DNA of 64,000 bases from Nostoc sp. HK-01 (GTDB taxonomy: Bacteria > Cyanobacteriota > Cyanobacteriia > Cyanobacteriales > Nostocaceae): contig AP018318.1 in the NCBI GenBank assembly GCA_003990705.1, positions 3,599,501 to 3,663,500 of the forward strand, given 5' to 3'. Under the pieces are notes generated by a model that was not told where the DNA came from, ran no database searches, and saw only the letters and a program-made list of their open reading frames with translations. The translations under genes and the position numbers were made by a program. Positions 7,664 through 31,737 of the stretch are shown here, in pieces. Numbering within the stretch: the first letter of the stretch is position 1; each line of letters opens with the position of its first letter.

Positions 7664-7797
7664 AGTTCCTTCCATTACCGACGGAGTTAGCTGACGGGCT
7701 AAGACTGGAAGGTGTCTTTCTGAAAGATTAGCCCCATATATTTGGTTCCTCCGTTTCAAATCATGATTGTTGATGGATTTGAATTAGGCGACCCGCT
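7664..7797 (-). ncRNA. ydaO/yuaA-type c-di-AMP riboswitch before the Usp gene
   Basis: Read on the minus strand, this leader holds the ordered conserved blocks of the ydaO aptamer: GGAGGAACCAA, then GGGGCTAATC, then CCCGTCAGCTAACTCCGT followed by a GG-rich closing arm. Downstream, AACTCCCAA can pair with TTGGGGTT just before TTTCTTT, giving a weak terminator-like platform. It lies between the ABC transporter ATPase stop and the Usp start and shares its core with the copy at 11311-11513. Class ydaO binds c-di-AMP and is usually an OFF switch. Boundaries are approximate. Confidence 0.85.
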
Positions 7798-7817
7798 AAA
7801 AGAAATAATAAACTAAT

Positions 7818-11310: not shown

Positions 11311-11513
11311 CTTCAGTCTCCTCTCAATGCCTACGAAGTTAGCTGACGGGCTAGGGCTGAGAGATGCCCCTCTCTTACAAGTGCTGAGTAATTAGTGCTG
11401 AGTTGAATTATTAATCACTCTGTACTTTTTACTTAACCTTTCTATGAGATACGCCCCAAAATTTGGTTCCTCCGCTTCAGCGTTTGCGTAATTTGACGCG
11501 CTGAATTAGGCTG
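11311..11513 (-). ncRNA. ydaO/yuaA-type c-di-AMP riboswitch before the ABC importer operon
   Basis: On the minus strand the leader holds GCGGAGGAACCAA, then GGGGCGTATC, then CAGCCCTAGCCCGTCAGC followed by TAACTTCGTAGGC, the most conserved segments of the ydaO aptamer, in the expected order. An insert of about 90 bases separates the first and last blocks, longer than in the 7664-7797 copy; it fits an extended variable stem. The expression platform between 11217 and 11310 is not clear by eye. By family this should sense c-di-AMP and shut the operon off when ligand is high. Confidence 0.85.
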
Positions 11514-11848
11514 ACTTACTCGAATTGTCAACAACATAGCGAAATATAACATTGCTGTCCAGTAAAAACAACTTCTGGGGATAGACTCTATTTGTTGATT
11601 TAGCCTAATTTGATGAATCTTTGGGTGAGTAATGATGTGTGACGCATCTACACCTTTGGCTCATTAGGACTGATTATCCGATTTATCAAAAACTCAAGAC
11701 AAATAGGTAAAATCTATCTCTATAATTACGTAATATCTTCCCTGATGTAGTTGAATTATTCCGTTAATTTTGACCAAAAAAACACTGTTCTCGATAAACT
11801 AGTTGTAGATCAAAATTACTTAACTAAATCTATACAAAATTTAACGTA
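11514..11848. other. Intergenic region between the importer leader and a kinase gene
   Basis: AT-rich DNA that must hold the divergent promoters of the riboswitch-led operon (minus) and the kinase (plus). No gene, strong palindrome or clear -35/-10 pair stands out. Confidence 0.5.
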
Positions 11849-20012: not shown

Positions 20013-20342
20013 GTGTTAAATATCAAGACACTTTTGGTGATTGCCGTTGGTTTTTTACCATCCCTGTTTTCCTTATGGTTAATCCGTAAAACCCAATTAC
20101 GGACAAGGGCGCAGCTGAGACAAGCAGCCATGAATTTTTCTGGGACAAGGGGTAGACAAAATATCAGACCGATGGATGGCGATCGCTACTACTTGGAAGG
20201 AGTAGGCTATCTTATTGGTGACATTAGCTGCAAATTTAACGCCCGTTCTGGTTACATCCGTTGTGCTGTTAACCCCTGTGGCCCTTGTCAAGGTTGTCGT
20301 TACTACGAGCAAAAAGAATTAACTAGTAGCGAACAAGCCTAA
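20013..20342 (+). CDS. Small membrane-anchored Cys-containing protein (DUF6464-like)
   Basis: A 109-residue protein. One N-terminal membrane helix (about 5-25) is followed by a soluble domain with CKFNARSGYIRCAVNPCGPC and a second close Cys (CQGCRYYE); five Cys in a short span suggest metal binding or disulfides. From memory it resembles the cyanobacterial DUF6464 family; this should be treated as tentative. The start is GTG behind an AAGAAG ribosome site. It is found only by itself here, with no operon partner. Confidence 0.7.
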   Translation: MLNIKTLLVIAVGFLPSLFSLWLIRKTQLRTRAQLRQAAMNFSGTRGRQNIRPMDGDRYYLEGVGYLIGDISCKFNARSGYIRCAVNPCGPCQGCRYYEQKELTSSEQA

Positions 20343-22274: not shown

Positions 22275-23006
22275 CTATTTTCTTTCAGTCCCCACAGCAA
22301 CACAGTAAAGCGCCGCATGACGTTTACCATCAATACCTAACATAGTGTTCAAACTCATATCATAAAATCCGCCTATGCAAAGACTAGCCAAATCTAATTG
22401 CACAGCCATCAGACAGATATTTTCGGCTTGATGACCAGCTTCTAAAAGTGCAAAGCGGTAGCCACGCGCACCGTATTTGCATAGCGATCGCATAAAAACC
22501 GATGTAAACATAAACAAAGCATTGGCATTCACTATATAATCCTGTTGCAATAAAGGTTTGACAAAATCGTTTGGTACTGCATCATTCACCCGATGCAAGC
22601 CATGACCGCGTGGCTCATAGTGATATAGCCCATTAGCTAAATTTTCTACCGCTTGCGTTGCGACAAAAACCTCCAAAGGATAAAGCCCTCCCGCAGATGG
22701 TGAGTTTCGCGCTTCATAGGTGTAACCATCCATTTGACGCAACCCATTCAGTCCGCATCCAGCATCAAGCAACTGCACTAATTGAATCAGCGGCATAGTT
22801 GTATTAGCAAACGATCGCACCGAAGACCGTCGCGCTAAAATTTGACTCAGCGAGTTATCGTGTGGTGCTTTTGGCAGTTCCAAAAAAGGAGCTTCCGGCA
22901 TATAGCGCATTTCCGTCGCCGCAACACGCTTGACATAACTTTTCGGCACTGGCGAGTTCAAATGATAAAGCAACGCTAACTCTAGTGGCTCGTTGGCTGT
23001 ATACAT
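22275..23006 (-). CDS. SagB/ThcOx-type azoline dehydrogenase
   Basis: A 243-residue FMN-dependent nitroreductase-fold enzyme. RRSSVRSFANTTMPLIQL and SPSAGGLYPLEVFVATQAV are the SagB family FMN-binding signatures; ALLEAGHQAENICL follows. In TOMM pathways the enzyme oxidises thiazolines and oxazolines to aromatic thiazoles and oxazoles. An AGGA ribosome site precedes the ATG. It is the last gene of the minus-strand TOMM set, 79 bases after the YcaO gene. The size is that of a catalytic domain alone, without the extra subdomain seen in some SagB proteins. Confidence 0.9.
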   Translation of the reverse strand: MYTANEPLELALLYHLNSPVPKSYVKRVAATEMRYMPEAPFLELPKAPHDNSLSQILARRSSVRSFANTTMPLIQLVQLLDAGCGLNGLRQMDGYTYEARNSPSAGGLYPLEVFVATQAVENLANGLYHYEPRGHGLHRVNDAVPNDFVKPLLQQDYIVNANALFMFTSVFMRSLCKYGARGYRFALLEAGHQAENICLMAVQLDLASLCIGGFYDMSLNTMLGIDGKRHAALYCVAVGTERK

Positions 23007-23085
23007 AGTTCTGATTTCCTGACATTAAACGGAAAATGGGTATAGGGGTGTAAGGGTGTAATAAAATCCAAAATCCAAAATTGTT

Positions 23086-24414
23086 TTAAGCCATAGGATG
23101 TGGACAAGGATTGAGGTCGTTTGCGGTACGTTGTCCACCGTAACCTAACCTTTTTGGTACCTCGAATAACCGCCGAGTACCCAACGGTTCTAGCCCATGA
23201 CCAAAATATATCGGGACTAATTCACTGGCTAAAGTCCGCACAACACGAAAACCAAGCGATGCAACATCAGGGGTGGTAATTTCCACTAAATATGGTTCAG
23301 CGCCAACGGAATGCAACCTTGTAATGACAGTTCGCAATTTTTCTGCCTCGGCTGAAGACGGGTAAGTTGGTAAATCTTCAACTGTGAGGTAATTTTCATG
23401 CTCAAATAAAAATTCCAACTCGCATAACCGAGCCGTTTTATAGAAAAAAGCGCTGTGATCGTCTAAATTCTGCACATCTTCATATTGATTGAGATTAGCC
23501 CCAGCGCCATTAGCTTTGCGTTCTATGTCACCAAAGCGGGCTTGACAAACTTCAAAAATCGCCTTACGCAGTGCTATTGACCCATCAAGATGGCATCCTA
23601 AACCAGTCGCCACAGCCGGACTTCTGCCAGAACGGTCAATTAACATTGCCATAACAACGGGGATGTTAATATCAGTTGTCAAATAGAAGGTAACTAATTC
23701 AATGCCAAATCGGGCATAGTTGCGTAAAATTTCGGTTTCAATTCCGGGACGATGAGCAAAATAAATGCGGGGAGCAGGTAGGCGATTTAACCATGTAATG
23801 ATAAAAGCATCACGCTCAATCAACTCGCATAAGCCACTGTAAGCCGCAAATTCAAGAGTAGGGCCACTAGCCATACCATTAGAGGTGACAGGTAAAACAT
23901 AATCTCCTGGTTGATTACTATCCCAGTCAAAATAAACCATGAAGGCGGGGACTAACACCTGTTGGTTACTTGTCAGAGATATGGCAGTTATCCATGAAGT
24001 CTGCGTTAATTGATCAAAAGCCGGAAAGGGAAAATTTGGATCAGAATATTGGTTATCAGAAAACGAGAAAAAAGCTGGCGGATGAACGGCGGGATGACTT
24101 AAATCTGCGTAACTACTCACAATTAGTTGCCGATAATCAACAATGCTGCCACAGTAGCGCTCTACAGCTTCGCCAACTGCCCCAAAAATTGCTTGTTCAT
24201 CAGTCATCCCCCTGCCTACACCGTAGCGTAAATCATCCGATTGTTTGCGAAGCTGGAAATTTGCTAATTCAGCTTGCCACAAAACAGGAAAATCAAACTC
24301 TGTATAAGGCTTAGTAAATCTATCAATGGCGCGGATGATTCCCGTATGGGGACTAACTAAATCGCGCCAACGAGGACTAGCGATCGCAACATTCACTCTA
24401 TTCTCTCCTGTCAT
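23086..24414 (-). CDS. YcaO-domain azoline-forming cyclodehydratase
   Basis: A 442-residue YcaO enzyme that uses ATP to activate amide bonds of the precursor so that Cys (or Ser/Thr) side chains cyclise. The family ATP-site segments are visible as GAVGEAVERYCGS, SNGMASGPTLEFAAYSGLCE with LIERDAF, and the AIFEVCQARFGD helix. The chain ends in PCPHPMA, which contains the PxPxP tail typical of TOMM YcaO proteins. The start ATG overlaps the stop of the E1-like gene by four bases (ATGA), so translation is coupled. An upstream TTG at 24420 is less likely. Confidence 0.93.
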   Translation of the reverse strand: MTGENRVNVAIASPRWRDLVSPHTGIIRAIDRFTKPYTEFDFPVLWQAELANFQLRKQSDDLRYGVGRGMTDEQAIFGAVGEAVERYCGSIVDYRQLIVSSYADLSHPAVHPPAFFSFSDNQYSDPNFPFPAFDQLTQTSWITAISLTSNQQVLVPAFMVYFDWDSNQPGDYVLPVTSNGMASGPTLEFAAYSGLCELIERDAFIITWLNRLPAPRIYFAHRPGIETEILRNYARFGIELVTFYLTTDINIPVVMAMLIDRSGRSPAVATGLGCHLDGSIALRKAIFEVCQARFGDIERKANGAGANLNQYEDVQNLDDHSAFFYKTARLCELEFLFEHENYLTVEDLPTYPSSAEAEKLRTVITRLHSVGAEPYLVEITTPDVASLGFRVVRTLASELVPIYFGHGLEPLGTRRLFEVPKRLGYGGQRTANDLNPCPHPMA

Positions 24415-25526
24415 GAACAATGGGGGCAGCCAGGTTTTTTCAGCACAACGTTGTGAGTTAGTTTTGTACCCAGTAAGTCTAAATGCACTAATTTGCCATC
24501 TGTAGCAATAGGTAAACCGAGAAACATCTTAATAGTATCCAGCGCCAAGTAACTTCCAACTAACATCTGAGCGATGGGCAAATTTTCTTGCAACCTTGGT
24601 TGAGAACGGCGTTCTCGGTCGAGAAATCGCTCAATTGCCAATTCCGCTTCTGGTAGTTTGGCACAAGCTATCGACCGCATCCGATAGCAGAGATAACAAG
24701 GGCCATCTTGAGCAAAGACTAGTGGGCCAAAAGTTCCTTCCACACCAGCCGCCCCACCCGGTAGCAATGGGCGCTGCATTTTCAGGCATAATCTGTTGAG
24801 GCGATAGGCGAGATTAACAGAAACAGCATCGGTGGCGACAATTACAAGGTCAACATCTTCCAGCAAAGCATTGACTGTGGCATCGTCCATCAAATTATCT
24901 ATCACAATCTCAGTGTCTGTGATTTCTGCGATCGCCTCAATTTGTCTTGCTGCTTCCACACCCCGCAAAGCACCGATTTGATTAAATACTAAGCCTGACA
25001 TCATCATTGCATCGGAGGGAATTGTGCAGACATCATCACAAAGTCGCAGATAACCAATACCAGCACTAGCCAAGTTAATTGCAGCTATCAACCCTGAACC
25101 ACCGAGTCCGAAAACAGCAATCCTTGCGTTGGCTAAGTGTTTTTGGGCATCTTGTTGCTGAAATCCTAACTCATGATAAAGACTAATTTGCGGCAGTAAA
25201 TAAGCACGACTATCTAAATCGATAGTTTCTTCTAAAAGCTCCTCAACTAAGCGATTTTCCATCAAAAACTCTAAACATTGATTGAGTGAAGCATCTGTCA
25301 ATTTTTCGCCAATTTCCGCCCGAATTTCTCCTATCGTTCGGGAGCCATCTAGTAAAGGCAATACCATACTTTCTACATCGTGCAGTGCTTGGCCTTTAAC
25401 TGTTAGGGTTCGCCGCGTCGTATTGAAGATCATTGTTTCTTCGCCATGACAATCTGGCGGCATAACATGAACGACAACGTGTTCTAGTAGACGCAGATGC
25501 TGATTATCATTTAATTTCATAGGCAT
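24411..25526 (-). CDS. E1/ThiF-like TOMM cyclodehydratase partner (precursor-binding)
   Basis: A 371-residue protein. Residues 1-95 match the pattern of a RiPP recognition element (winged helix fold, DGSRTIGEIRAEIGEKL) that binds the leader peptide. The E1-like domain has the nucleotide motif IAVFGLGGSGLIAAINLASAG. Zinc ligands are CYLC and CPHC at the C-terminus. In TOMM systems this C protein delivers the precursor to YcaO and raises its activity. ATG at 25526 is preferred to the TTG at 25568. It overlaps the YcaO gene by four bases. Confidence 0.9.
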   Translation of the reverse strand: MPMKLNDNQHLRLLEHVVVHVMPPDCHGEETMIFNTTRRTLTVKGQALHDVESMVLPLLDGSRTIGEIRAEIGEKLTDASLNQCLEFLMENRLVEELLEETIDLDSRAYLLPQISLYHELGFQQQDAQKHLANARIAVFGLGGSGLIAAINLASAGIGYLRLCDDVCTIPSDAMMMSGLVFNQIGALRGVEAARQIEAIAEITDTEIVIDNLMDDATVNALLEDVDLVIVATDAVSVNLAYRLNRLCLKMQRPLLPGGAAGVEGTFGPLVFAQDGPCYLCYRMRSIACAKLPEAELAIERFLDRERRSQPRLQENLPIAQMLVGSYLALDTIKMFLGLPIATDGKLVHLDLLGTKLTHNVVLKKPGCPHCS

Positions 25527-25614
25527 TATTTTATTGTTAAAGCTCCATAAAAAAAGATAGAAAAGCAATTTTGTTTAGCAAAATGTAGAGAATAAAATTC
25601 TATGTTTTCGTAGC

Positions 25615-25714
25615 TAGAGCAATCTTAATTTATGAATATTTAGTTGGATTCAGATTCCAGAATTATTTGAGAATTCGGGAATCTATGTATTCACCAATGA
25701 TTAAGATTGCTCTA
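25615..25714. repeat. 100-bp nested palindrome between precursor and E1-like genes
   Basis: The ends TAGAGCAATCTTAAT and ATTAAGATTGCTCTA form a perfect 15-bp inverted repeat, and inside it AGATTCC-GAATT pairs with AATTC-GGAATCT. The outer TA on each side fits a mariner/IS630-type miniature element with TA target duplication. As RNA it would be a strong stem-loop just after the precursor stop; there is no T run, so it would act by RNA stability or attenuation rather than as a plain terminator. Confidence 0.75.
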
Positions 25715-25740
25715 TAATTGTTATTCTCTCTCCAGCTAAT

Positions 25741-26112
25741 TTAATATCCAAATCCAAAATCATCACTATCATCTGGCACACTTGATATTGAGCCAGTTTC
25801 ACTAACTCTACATCCTCCACATCCACGACATCCGCATCCACGGCATCCGCAGCCTCGACATCCGCAGCCTCGACATCCACAGCCTCGACATCCAATGCAG
25901 CCTCGACATCCAACGCAGCCTCCACATCCGCCACATCCGCCGCAATTAGCAAACCATCTTTGCTGAGTCTCAGATTCCAACATTCCTGGCATTGCCAATT
26001 TTTCTAAAGCTGCGATTTCTTCATCAGATAATAAAAGTTGTTCTAATTTGTCTGCTTTGTCTTCCAAACGCATATCTATTGTTTGTTGGGTCAGTGTTTT
26101 TTCTGCAAGCAT
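25741..26112 (-). CDS. TOMM/RiPP precursor peptide with Cys-rich repeat core (heterocycloanthracin-like)
   Basis: A 123-residue precursor. The leader (1-56) is acidic and helical (LEQLLLSDEEIAALEKLAM) and ends in QQRWFAN. The core (57-101) is three CGG units, CVG, CRG, CIG, then CRGCG repeats and a final CGGC, 17 Cys in 45 residues. A 22-residue Ser/Asp-rich tail ends in FGFGY. ATG at 26112 follows AGGAGT at 8 bases; a GTG two codons upstream is too close to that site. Cys-x-x repeats resemble the heterocycloanthracin group, in which Cys become thiazoles. The modifying genes lie directly downstream. The product is unknown. Confidence 0.85.
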   Translation of the reverse strand: MLAEKTLTQQTIDMRLEDKADKLEQLLLSDEEIAALEKLAMPGMLESETQQRWFANCGGCGGCGGCVGCRGCIGCRGCGCRGCGCRGCGCRGCGCRGCGGCRVSETGSISSVPDDSDDFGFGY

Positions 26113-26278
26113 CGTCACTTACTCCTGTTAACTTCAATTTATGAGCCTATTGGCAAATCTGCATTCAAGTTTATGAAAGCTTTGATGATGTTTGTACATC
26201 AACTAGCCTTCATCTAAGAATGGATATTAGAACGGGTAGATGTGAAGGATGACTAGAAAATAAAACAATGGTTAATGC

Positions 26279-26310
26279 TTAACTATATATACCCACACAG
26301 GTATAGTTAA
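26279..26310. promoter_or_regulatory. Interrupted palindrome in the precursor/exporter promoter region
   Basis: TTAACTATATATACC and GGTATAGTTAA form an inverted repeat with a 4-base bulge and a 6-base loop, 167 bases upstream of the precursor start. It could be an operator or a leader hairpin. Confidence 0.45.
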
Positions 26311-26514
26311 ACAAAAACACTCAGCTTTTAATTCAGAGTTTTACTAATCCACAAATGGTCAAAATCACTGTAAAATAAGTGATGGGAACTCATGGATAAA
26401 ATTGAGGTTCCCTAAAACCTTGTCTTTGATAAAACGTTTGCTACTTTTAGCAAAATACTTGTCTTGTTTTGATCATCTGACTTCTCTAACATTATCTTTT
26501 TCTAGAGTTTTTTA

Positions 26515-26584
26515 TTCTTTCTTAAGTAGTATAGTTTTTACCCGGAATCTTAATCTTGCTCTTTCTTAAGTAGGATGGTTTTTT
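26515..26584. promoter_or_regulatory. Two direct repeats 44 bp apart upstream of the ABC exporter
   Basis: TCTTTCTTAAGTAG followed by T/G-AT-A/G-GTTTTT occurs twice with a 44-bp period, about four helical turns, so both copies face the same side of the DNA. This suggests a phased regulator site for the exporter and possibly the divergent precursor. The regulator is unknown. The remainder of the 610-base region 26113-26722 shows no gene. Confidence 0.5.
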
Positions 26585-26722
26585 GTTGAGATAGACTCTA
26601 ATATAACTTGCTGCATTAGGGTACTGATGTAGAACCTAGCTTGAACACGGCTATGTAGACTAATACACAACAGAGATAAGGTGGGTTTCACTTAATACCA
26701 AATAAATAATTAGGTTTAATTG

Positions 26723-28549
26723 ATGAGCGACTTAAGAGTTTGGTTTGCAGACTACACTAAAGCTTTATTTCGTTCTCTACCTTTGCTATGGACAGCAGCA
26801 CCGAGAGAAATGATATTTTTGATTGCTGTCACTTTATTGCAAGGGTTTCTTCCGGCTATTAGTGTTTGGATTACCAAATTAGTAGTAGATACTGTAGCAG
26901 CAGCCTTAACATCTGGGAGAGAATTAGGGTATGCAATGCTTGTACCTTTGGTAGCAGGATGGGTGGGAGCTTTGTTACTAGAGACATTGCTGTATCCTTG
27001 GGTATTTGCACTTCAAGGAGATCTCAATGACAAGTTAACGGCTCACATTAGCTTATTATTAATGAGTAAAGCTGATAGTTTTGCAGATTTGAGTCGTTTT
27101 GAAGATTCTGTGTTTTATGATGAGTTACAACTTCTGCAACAACAAATCGGCTATAAACCGCTGAGTTTATTAGAAAATTTAGTGGAATTAAGTCGTTCTT
27201 TTGTGACTTTGATAGTGATAGTTGGGTTATTAGTTCCCCTAGCTTTTTGGATACCATTAGTGATTGCGATCGCAACTATACCCCAAATAGTGGTTTCTTC
27301 TCAGTATGGCAAAACTATTTGGCTAACTTTATTTGAACATAGCCCTGAAGCGCGGAGAATGCAATATTACACTTCGGTGATGCTGACTGATACCTATGCG
27401 AAAGAAATTAGGTTGTTTCAGCTAGGTTCATTTTTTATCGCACGTTACCTAGAAGCATTTCAGTCTTTACATCAAACAATGCGCCATCTGCGAGGAAAAC
27501 AAGCATTTTGGTCATCTACTTTAGCTATTCTTAGTACGTTGGGAAATGGTTTTGCTTTTTACTGGGTAGTACAGAAAGCTTTTCGCGGTGATTTCAGTCC
27601 TGGTAGTGTACTTTTATTTGTACAATCATTGACTTACTTTCAAAATAATCTCGAAAGATTTGTCGCTAATTGGGTAGATTTGTTAGAAAATGTTCTTTAT
27701 ATGCAGCAGTTTTTCAATTTTCTCGACAGTCCCATCCCAATGCAAATAAGTATACCTGGTGAGAAAGTGCCAACTCCTATTCGGTCAGGTATTACTTTCG
27801 AGAAAGTTGACTTTTACTACCCAGATAATCGTTTAGCTCTGCAAGATATTTCTTTTACTATTTATCCGGGAGAAACAGTTGCTATTGTCGGAGAGAATGG
27901 CGCAGGTAAAACTACTTTAGTGAAACTGTTGACTAGGTTATATGACCCAACACAAGGATGTATTTTAGTTGATGGAATAGATTTAAGAAACTTAAATTTA
28001 GAACATTGGCGGCAGCAAATAGCTGGTGTTTTTCAAGATTTTGGGCATTATGCGCTGACTCTGGGAGAAAATATTGCTTTGGGAAATTTAGCTGCTTTAG
28101 AAAATCCAAATATTCTCAGATATGCAATCGAAAAAGCTGATATAGCTAAACTAGTTGATGATTTTACTACTAGAGAGGATACACCACTAGGAAAGCAATT
28201 TGGCGGTACGGAACTTTCTGGTGGTCAGTGGCAAAAGTTAGCTTTAGCTCGTGCTTTTGTGCGTCAATCAGCCCAACTATTACTATTAGATGAACCAACT
28301 GCCGCACTCGACCCTCGCAGCGAATATAATCTCTACCGACGCTTTATTGAATTAGCCGAGGGTAAAACTACAATTTTGATTACTCATAGACTCGCTTCTG
28401 TACGGATGGCTGACCGAATTTTAGTTCTCAAAGCTGGTCATTTAATTGAAGATGGCACTCATCTGGAACTTTTACAACGTGGCGGTGAATATACAAATTT
28501 GTGGAATATGCAGGCACAACATTACGGGGTATCTGAAGAAAATTTGTAA
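26723..28549 (+). CDS. ABC exporter (fused membrane and ATPase domains) of the TOMM locus
   Basis: A 608-residue half-transporter. Residues 15-330 hold six membrane helices; residues 355-595 form the ATPase with Walker A GENGAGKTT, signature LSGGQWQKLALARAF and Walker B LLLLDEPTAALD, then the H-loop ITHRLAS. There is no N-terminal C39 peptidase domain, so it would export the peptide without cutting the leader. It is divergent from the precursor gene and shares its regulatory region, which makes peptide export the likely role. The start is ATG two codons downstream of a TTG. Confidence 0.88.
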   Translation: MSDLRVWFADYTKALFRSLPLLWTAAPREMIFLIAVTLLQGFLPAISVWITKLVVDTVAAALTSGRELGYAMLVPLVAGWVGALLLETLLYPWVFALQGDLNDKLTAHISLLLMSKADSFADLSRFEDSVFYDELQLLQQQIGYKPLSLLENLVELSRSFVTLIVIVGLLVPLAFWIPLVIAIATIPQIVVSSQYGKTIWLTLFEHSPEARRMQYYTSVMLTDTYAKEIRLFQLGSFFIARYLEAFQSLHQTMRHLRGKQAFWSSTLAILSTLGNGFAFYWVVQKAFRGDFSPGSVLLFVQSLTYFQNNLERFVANWVDLLENVLYMQQFFNFLDSPIPMQISIPGEKVPTPIRSGITFEKVDFYYPDNRLALQDISFTIYPGETVAIVGENGAGKTTLVKLLTRLYDPTQGCILVDGIDLRNLNLEHWRQQIAGVFQDFGHYALTLGENIALGNLAALENPNILRYAIEKADIAKLVDDFTTREDTPLGKQFGGTELSGGQWQKLALARAFVRQSAQLLLLDEPTAALDPRSEYNLYRRFIELAEGKTTILITHRLASVRMADRILVLKAGHLIEDGTHLELLQRGGEYTNLWNMQAQHYGVSEENL

Positions 28550-31417: not shown

Positions 31418-31644
31418 TCAGGCTTTTTACTCGAAGCGTCAGGCTTTGAACTCGAAGCGTCAGGCTTTTTACTCGAAGCGTCAGGCTTTTTACTTGAAGC
31501 GTCAGGCTTTGAACTCGAAGCGTCAGGCTTTTTACTTGAAGCGTCAGGCTTTTTACTCGAAGCGTCAGGCTTTTTACTTGAAGCGTCAGGCTTTGAACTC
31601 GAAGCGTCAGGCTTTTTACTTGAAGCGTCAGGCTTTTTACTGGA
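31418..31644. repeat. 21-bp tandem repeat, about 11 units
   Basis: The unit GAAGCGTCAGGCTTTTTACTC repeats about 11 times between the SDR and the Old Yellow Enzyme genes. Variants at two sites (TTTTT or TTTGA, and ACTC or ACTT) alternate in a pattern that suggests earlier duplication of multi-unit blocks. Because 21 is divisible by 3, open frames run through it on both strands; they encode repeats such as KKPDASS and are not taken as genes. Confidence 0.9.
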
Positions 31645-31737
31645 AATCTTGAGGAAAAAGCAGGAAATTCCGTGCTTCATCGGAAAATGTTCTATTCTTT
31701 TTCTTAATTTCTGACTTTTAACTACGGAAATGTCAGT

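Follow-up and report, generated by a model that had tools for sequence, protein, structure and literature searches.

A conserved five-gene cassette in Nostoc sp. HK-01 and related cyanobacteria, probably an azole-forming peptide system of anabaenasin type

Among the azole-forming ribosomally synthesized and post-translationally modified peptides (RiPPs) known as thiazole/oxazole-modified microcins (TOMMs), the anabaenasins are an uncharacterised group that received its name in 2015, when five precursors and 11 species were on record (Cox, Doroghazi and Mitchell 2015, PMC4603692). They have discrete C and D proteins and Gly- and Cys-rich precursors, and Anabaena sp. 90 is among the producers; their D protein is closest to those of the haloazolisins and mobilisins, and their C protein is unlike other TOMM C proteins (PMC4603692). 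Because C and D are separated by a transposase in Anabaena sp. 90, the same authors thought that anabaenasin clusters are possibly mobile or inactive (PMC4603692). Here, we describe a locus at positions 22275-28549 of a 64,000-nt stretch of the Nostoc sp. HK-01 genome (GCA_003990705.1, contig AP018318.1, positions 3,599,501 to 3,663,500, forward strand; hereafter the window), which we consider with good confidence to be a minimal five-gene TOMM cassette of anabaenasin type. A sequence-only reading of the window had already proposed a TOMM cluster here. Its leader-binding E1-like protein, YcaO enzyme, SagB-type dehydrogenase, exporter without C39 peptidase and lack of a conserved leader protease gene were borne out, but its link to the heterocycloanthracins and its view that such a core looks unusual in a cyanobacterium were not. 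The features of the locus are as follows.

22275 to 23006, minus strand: SagB-type flavin mononucleotide (FMN) dehydrogenase (B protein); TIGR03605, invariant KY of KYGARGYRF, match to the solved McbC.
23086 to 24396, minus strand: YcaO cyclodehydratase (D protein) with the tail NPCPHPMA; TIGR03604, PF02624, invariant PCPHP.
24411 to 25520, minus strand: E1-like TOMM C protein; TIGR03882, PF00899, alignment of 16 sequences, start suggested by conservation.
25615 to 25714, no strand assigned: 15-bp perfect inverted repeat with 70 nt between its arms, between the precursor and E1 genes; possible attenuator.
25741 to 26112, minus strand: precursor peptide gene, from the list of open reading frames (ORFs); 123 residues, 17 Cys.
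25945 to 26112, minus strand: leader, precursor residues 1-56; alignment of 30 distinct precursors, homologous leader in a Paracoccus locus (L068).
25810 to 25944, minus strand: core, residues 57-101, of Gly/Arg/Cys repeats; precursor alignment, 15-bp tandem repeat in the DNA.
25744 to 25809, minus strand: acidic C-terminal follower ending in GFGY; conserved FGY or GFGY ends among the 30 precursors.
26113 to 26722, no strand assigned: divergent intergenic region with a conserved CAGAT element; alignment of 18 of 25 upstream regions.
26723 to 28549, plus strand: divergent ABC exporter without C39 peptidase; NCBIfam and Pfam matches, present at 23 of 25 loci.

The three genes directly downstream of the precursor, read earlier as encoding an E1-like, a YcaO and a SagB protein, all passed the curated C, D and B models. 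TIGR03882 matched the E1-like protein with 42.6 bits (cut-off, 36.9), TIGR03604 the YcaO protein with 326.8 bits (cut-off, 219.25) and TIGR03605 the SagB protein with 132.8 bits (cut-off, 78.4). Searching genome contigs with the E1-like protein gave 24 named loci, which together with the window make up 25 loci; from these, 17 YcaO (the window's included), 16 SagB and 16 E1 sequences were aligned, without the E1 of L049, whose chosen stretch contains a stop. Conservation suggests that E1 starts at the ATG at 25520, YcaO at the GTG at 24396 and the ABC protein at the ATG at 26723. The PxPxP tail seen in the first reading of YcaO is real: the protein ends in NPCPHPMA, and PCPHP is invariant in 17 of 17 aligned sequences. 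Residues E84, E87, R88, N181, E199, E202 and R203 are likewise kept in all 17, and we take them, together with PCPHP, to be part of the nucleotide/metal site. The best solved matches of YcaO were LynD, MusD and TruD, with a weak match to McbD (E = 0.0098). In SagB, K177-Y178, the KY of KYGARGYRF, is invariant in the 16 aligned sequences; this pair is presumably the catalytic one of McbC-type enzymes, and McbC was among the solved matches. The E1-like protein carries two C-terminal Cys pairs that are invariant in the 16 aligned sequences, and it aligned with MoeB, MccB and PaaA across its adenylyltransferase-like part. The Foldseek matches of its AlphaFold model (MccB, PaaA, MoeB, TruD and LynD) agree with this sequence search and add little to it. 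Its N-terminal region, roughly the first hundred residues, is probably a leader-binding domain of the RiPP recognition element type, and the TIGR03882 match supports the leader-binding region proposed earlier.

The ORF at 25741-26112 indeed encodes a peptide with an acidic leader and a 17-Cys repeat core. The leader has a net charge of -6 and no double Gly directly preceding the core. All 17 Cys lie within residues 57-101 and are separated by GG, VG, RG, IG or a single G, the core being made of Cys, Gly, Arg, Val and Ile only, with no Ser or Thr. The core is followed by an acidic tail of 22 residues (RVSETGSISSVPDDSDDFGFGY), which ends in DDFGFGY. At the DNA level, the core consists of 6.7 tandem copies of a 15-bp unit (25826-25931), which suggests that it would grow and shrink by duplication. 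No Pfam family matched the precursor at E values up to 1, and the one NCBIfam match was at chance level (E = 0.077, far under its cut-off); the NHLP and Nif11 leader models of NCBIfam and Pfam left the leader unmatched at E values up to 1. The proposed check against TOMM-type precursor families, made in NCBIfam and Pfam, yielded no family above cut-off for the precursor, TIGR03601 included.

We then clustered the ORFs of at least 80 residues in 18 kb of the window and the 24 named loci. E1 is present at all 25 loci by construction, YcaO at 25, the precursor at 24, SagB at 24 and the ABC protein at 23, while the next-commonest gene family reaches only 7 of 25. The precursor adjoins E1 at 24 of the 25 loci, the exception being L050, where the contig ends 236 bases before E1. 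Similarly, the two loci without the ABC gene, L050 and L056, lie on contigs that end 236 and 495 bases before E1, short of the ABC position. LysR, HlyD, SDR and DUF202-like neighbours were considered as parts of the system and rejected (HlyD at 7 of 25 loci, the others at fewer). What marks a TOMM by sequence is found here, namely a YcaO and an E1-like C protein above cut-off and, at 24 of 25 loci, a nearby precursor with a leader and a Cys-rich core. The 24 named loci come from Nostoc, Desmonostoc, Amazonocrinis, Anabaena, Trichormus, Sphaerospermopsis, Fortiea, Dolichospermum, Atlanticothrix and Dendronalium, all of which we take to belong to the Nostocaceae or to stand near them. To call the cluster unusual in a cyanobacterium was therefore too strong, given these 24 further loci and the anabaenasins that Cox et al. 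describe, with Anabaena sp. 90 as a producer.

The sequence-only reading had made its proposal depend on the precursor and the enzyme genes occurring together in relatives, and this is what we found. Across the order, E1 (E values up to 1e-30) was detected in 10 of 291 genomes, among them that of the window, and a leader-bearing precursor in the same 10, though in one of them (G128) the two are on different contigs. Weak precursor matches in 12 further genomes (E values of 4e-5 to 8e-4) began at query residue 41 or later and were leaderless; we took them as low-complexity matches, the inspection of these genomes covering their Cys-rich ORFs. In a sample of the phylum, E1 (E values up to 1e-40) was found in 16 of 386 genomes, all of the window's family, and the precursor was present at 6 of 6 newly found E1 loci read, a count in which G292 and G295 are not included. 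In the genus of G154, 7 of 16 genomes carry E1, and the same 7 carry YcaO. The distribution is thus patchy.

Such patchiness (E1 in 10 of the order's 291 genomes and in 7 of 16 in the genus of G154), together with the view of Cox et al. that anabaenasin clusters are possibly mobile or inactive (PMC4603692), could mean that in this strain the cassette is silent or undergoing decay. However, all five reading frames of the cassette are open in the window and retain the motifs that relatives share, so that we regard this explanation as very unlikely. By its sequence, the cassette is real, conserved and functional-looking.

To describe how the precursor varies, we collected 32 sequences, partly by likeness of the leader, and dropped two duplicates (L014, identical to L053, and L021, identical to L058), which left 30 distinct precursors; L019, L020 (whose precursor equals that of L055), L070, L071, L072, L074, L075 and L079 are outside this set. 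The 30 carry 9 to 20 Cys each (mean, 15.1). Their leader and acidic tail are conserved and their core is variable: QRW stands ahead of the core in 28 of 30, and the C terminus is FGY in 28 and GFGY in 24. The cores differ in the number of repeats and in the residue following Cys, which among 452 cases is Gly in 238, Arg in 139, Val in 24, Phe in 18 and Ile in 10. The residue preceding Cys is far more restricted (Gly 360, Pro 34, Asn 25, Arg 19, Tyr 5, others 9 of 452), and the first core Cys is preceded by Asn in most precursors. Excluding the first Cys of each core, Gly or Pro precedes 394 of 422 Cys, compared to 178 to 227 in 1000 composition-preserving shuffles, and there is no adjacent Cys pair, compared to 110 to 162 in the shuffles. 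A cyclodehydratase that needs a small residue ahead of each Cys for ring closure would be expected to select for such a rule. Together with the ORFs, the curated models and the adjacency of precursor and E1, this non-chance spacing of Cys confirms the original observation as a whole. Cores bearing GRC or FRC occur in L054, L056 and L058. In L055, L019 and L020, which end in FGN, the same type of leader precedes a divergent, Arg-rich core of GGYC repeats, and Cys therefore often stands after Tyr or Arg. L040 has two precursors adjoining each other.

We thus propose the following pathway. The E1-like protein would bind the acidic leader and present the core to YcaO, which, using ATP, would cyclodehydrate the core Cys onto the carbonyl of the preceding Gly or Pro; SagB would then oxidise the resulting thiazolines to thiazoles. 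The predicted product is a linear peptide with up to 17 mostly Gly-linked thiazoles, regularly placed Arg and a net positive charge. A protease encoded elsewhere would remove the leader and perhaps also the tail, and the divergent ABC protein would export the product, which may act as an antagonistic or signalling peptide. The assignment of this last protein agrees with the first reading: it matches ABC_tran, its ABC_membrane match is under the cut-off, and its 17 Pfam matches at E values up to 1 include no C39 model. No gene for a local leader protease is conserved among the ORFs of at least 80 residues of the window and the 24 named loci.

Cyclisation may also be incomplete: the rings may form on only part of the Cys, or stay at the thiazoline stage, the remaining Cys being free or in disulfides. 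This overlaps with our own wording of up to 17 thiazoles, and we see it as a tentative but real possibility. Cys as dense as these may escape full processing, and the locus of Dendronalium phyllosphericum (L054) has no SagB; this SagB-less locus, with its GRCxGC-type core, is a natural candidate for a thiazoline-only product. On the other hand, SagB is present at 24 of 25 loci, and its KY is invariant in the 16 aligned sequences.

Several points weigh against the assignment to an anabaenasin-type TOMM cassette. The conserved unit contains no protease gene; C39 peptidases are encoded at seven places over the cut-off elsewhere in the genome, but a double Gly immediately ahead of the core is missing from the leader. 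The comparison of families covers, besides the precursor, genes of 80 residues or more. L054 encodes the precursor, E1, YcaO and the ABC protein without SagB in a locus of 17 kb. The leader-binding domain is suggested by TIGR03882 and by a weak structural model (mean predicted local distance difference test score, 55.9; 65 to 83 in blocks of residues 21-110). The Gly/Pro rule is not universal; most exceptions to it are either the first Cys of a core or Cys in the divergent cores of L055, L056 and L058. Finally, in the related Paracoccus locus described below, the exporter match is limited to the ATPase part.

This locus lies on the Paracoccus denitrificans HAMBI_2443 plasmid NZ_CP141053.1 (L068:3692-9156), a TOMM cluster whose genes are not annotated in the record. 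Its order is a divergent ABC gene, a small precursor, a radical SAM C-methyltransferase gene (TIGR03975), E1, YcaO and SagB, and the identities to the window proteins are 34% for E1, 38% for YcaO and 35% for SagB. The cyanobacterial leader model detected its leader with an E value of 7.3e-8 among 385 ORFs of four loci, and the score of 28.8 bits compares with at most 13.0 in 2000 shuffles. No homologous leader was found in the Nonomuraea, Tistrella and Haloplanus loci (best E value, 0.39). The Paracoccus cluster shares with the window this leader, the order of E1, YcaO and SagB, and the divergent ABC gene. However, its core is VIQQC/IRPC-like with a Gly-rich end, and the TIGR03975 gene lies between precursor and E1. 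Since the leader is homologous and the core is different, leader and enzymes appear to form a module able to carry different cores, in this case in a proteobacterium. In the plasmid collection, which covers plasmids only, the window YcaO scored 259 bits against Paracoccus, 170 against Nonomuraea, 166 against Haloplanus and 160 against Halorubrum; the haloarchaeal matches are in line with the haloazolisin remark of Cox et al., short of proof.

The non-coding parts of the locus were compared as well. In the gap between precursor and E1, 12 of 23 loci have a longest perfect inverted-repeat arm that none of 30 base shuffles reached, and 11 of 23 do not; L050, which lies at a contig end, and L057, whose start pattern was not found, are outside this count. 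The repeat is a possible attenuator that would favour the precursor over the enzymes; because the hairpin sequences differ among loci, unrelated small repeats are also an option. In the 18 upstream regions aligned from the 25 loci, the CAGAT element, about 50 bases ahead of the precursor start, is invariant, and so is AGGA in the precursor ribosome-binding site. Two 24-nt direct repeats, 92% alike and 44 bases apart, lie at 26516-26583, about 140 bases ahead of the exporter gene.

Elsewhere in the window, a tandem array at 31418-31645 (21-bp unit, 10.9 copies, 90% matches) is open on both strands and probably non-coding; the genes beside it are, by eye, of the SDR and old-yellow-enzyme types. 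Two cyclic di-AMP riboswitch matches, at 7664-7800 and at 11313-11522 on the minus strand, exceed the Rfam gathering score and lie within 4 kb, and a DUF6464 protein with a CGPCQGC stretch is encoded at 20013-20342, outside the conserved unit.

There is also a bolder hypothesis, to which we would give only a small chance. In it, Nostoc- and Dolichospermum-type cyanobacteria would secrete linear, positively charged peptides with as many as about 20 thiazoles linked through Gly, which would serve as nucleic-acid- or metal-binding agents. Tandem duplication of short stretches of DNA would change the length and the charge pattern of these chains in evolution, while the leader ahead of the core and the GFGY tail behind it stayed fixed. 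If this were true, they would be, to our knowledge, the most heavily heterocyclised natural peptides.

Metal binding brings in a different class of RiPPs. Microbulbifer mmr precursors have EGKCG repeats and no nearby protease, according to the part of PMC12538549 that we consulted, and the same excerpts describe bulbicupramide and the bufferins, copper RiPPs made by MNIO enzymes from precursors whose Cys repeats vary in number and which have no protease close by. In these respects they resemble the window system, whose own protease-free, variable-copy Cys-repeat core could then belong to a RiPP that handles metals: a chain of Cys and thiazoles, cyclised in part, would bind copper or some other soft metal, either within the cell or outside it. 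However, the modifying enzymes and the rings differ (PMC12538549, in part): the window encodes YcaO and SagB and not MNIO/DUF2063, the conserved unit has neither a metal regulator nor a metal transporter, and no free thiols would be left if every Cys became a thiazole. We therefore find a metal-handling role unlikely, and keep to an anabaenasin-type TOMM.

The sequence-only reading had compared the precursor to the heterocycloanthracins. The likeness to heterocycloanthracin/sonorensin (TIGR03601) holds as far as the Cys-repeat core and the B protein are concerned. However, heterocycloanthracin clusters have a fused truncated CD cyclodehydratase and an F protein (PMC4603692), whereas the window and the 24 named loci have one ORF for C and another for D, and TIGR03601 matched neither the window precursor nor anything else in the genome. 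We rejected membership of this family on these two grounds; the ocin-ThiF model was also absent among the best 25 of 26 model matches of E1. The Cys-X-X repeat core and the SagB-type dehydrogenase could still be taken to mean that a true Bacillus-type heterocycloanthracin was acquired by a cyanobacterium, but the gene structure and the precursor model already contradict this, and we consider it scarcely credible. The best YcaO scores in the plasmid collection, to Paracoccus, Nonomuraea and haloarchaea, also speak against it, although this evidence is weak because plasmids are not where most heterocycloanthracin clusters would be expected. Microcin B17 (McbB/C/D) and plantazolicin share with the window discrete C and D proteins and a dehydrogenase; in contrast to them, the window precursor matches no Pfam or NCBIfam model, and its core has no Ser or Thr.

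In the open-licence literature searched, the word anabaenasin occurs in no paper besides Cox et al., and among the open-licence papers listed, judged by titles and the starts of abstracts, no other report of this cluster was found. The text of PMC3140520, on cyanobacterial bacteriocin clusters, contains neither 'ycao' nor 'sagb', and the cluster was not identified in the excerpts consulted. The Anabaena sp. 90 genome has seven putative bacteriocin clusters according to the part of PMC3542288 consulted, which contains neither 'ycao' nor 'thiazole' and in which we did not identify the cluster, nor was it identified in the passages of PMC7232259.

Compared by described features and not by sequences, the cassette best fits the anabaenasin TOMMs, with its discrete C and D ORFs and its Gly- and Cys-rich precursors (9 to 20 Cys in the 30 distinct sequences), and it is most likely a member of this already named kind. 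Unlike in Anabaena sp. 90, where a transposase separates C and D, the gap between E1 and YcaO is at most about 300 bases at the 24 named loci and in the 7 genomes of one genus. SagB, the exporter and the conserved tail go unmentioned in the text of the anabaenasin section of PMC4603692. Overall, these data provide a testable five-gene unit and indicate which parts of the precursor are fixed and which vary; added to the anabaenasins as described are this unit, its distribution, the conserved tail and the homologous leader with another core in the Paracoccus plasmid cluster.

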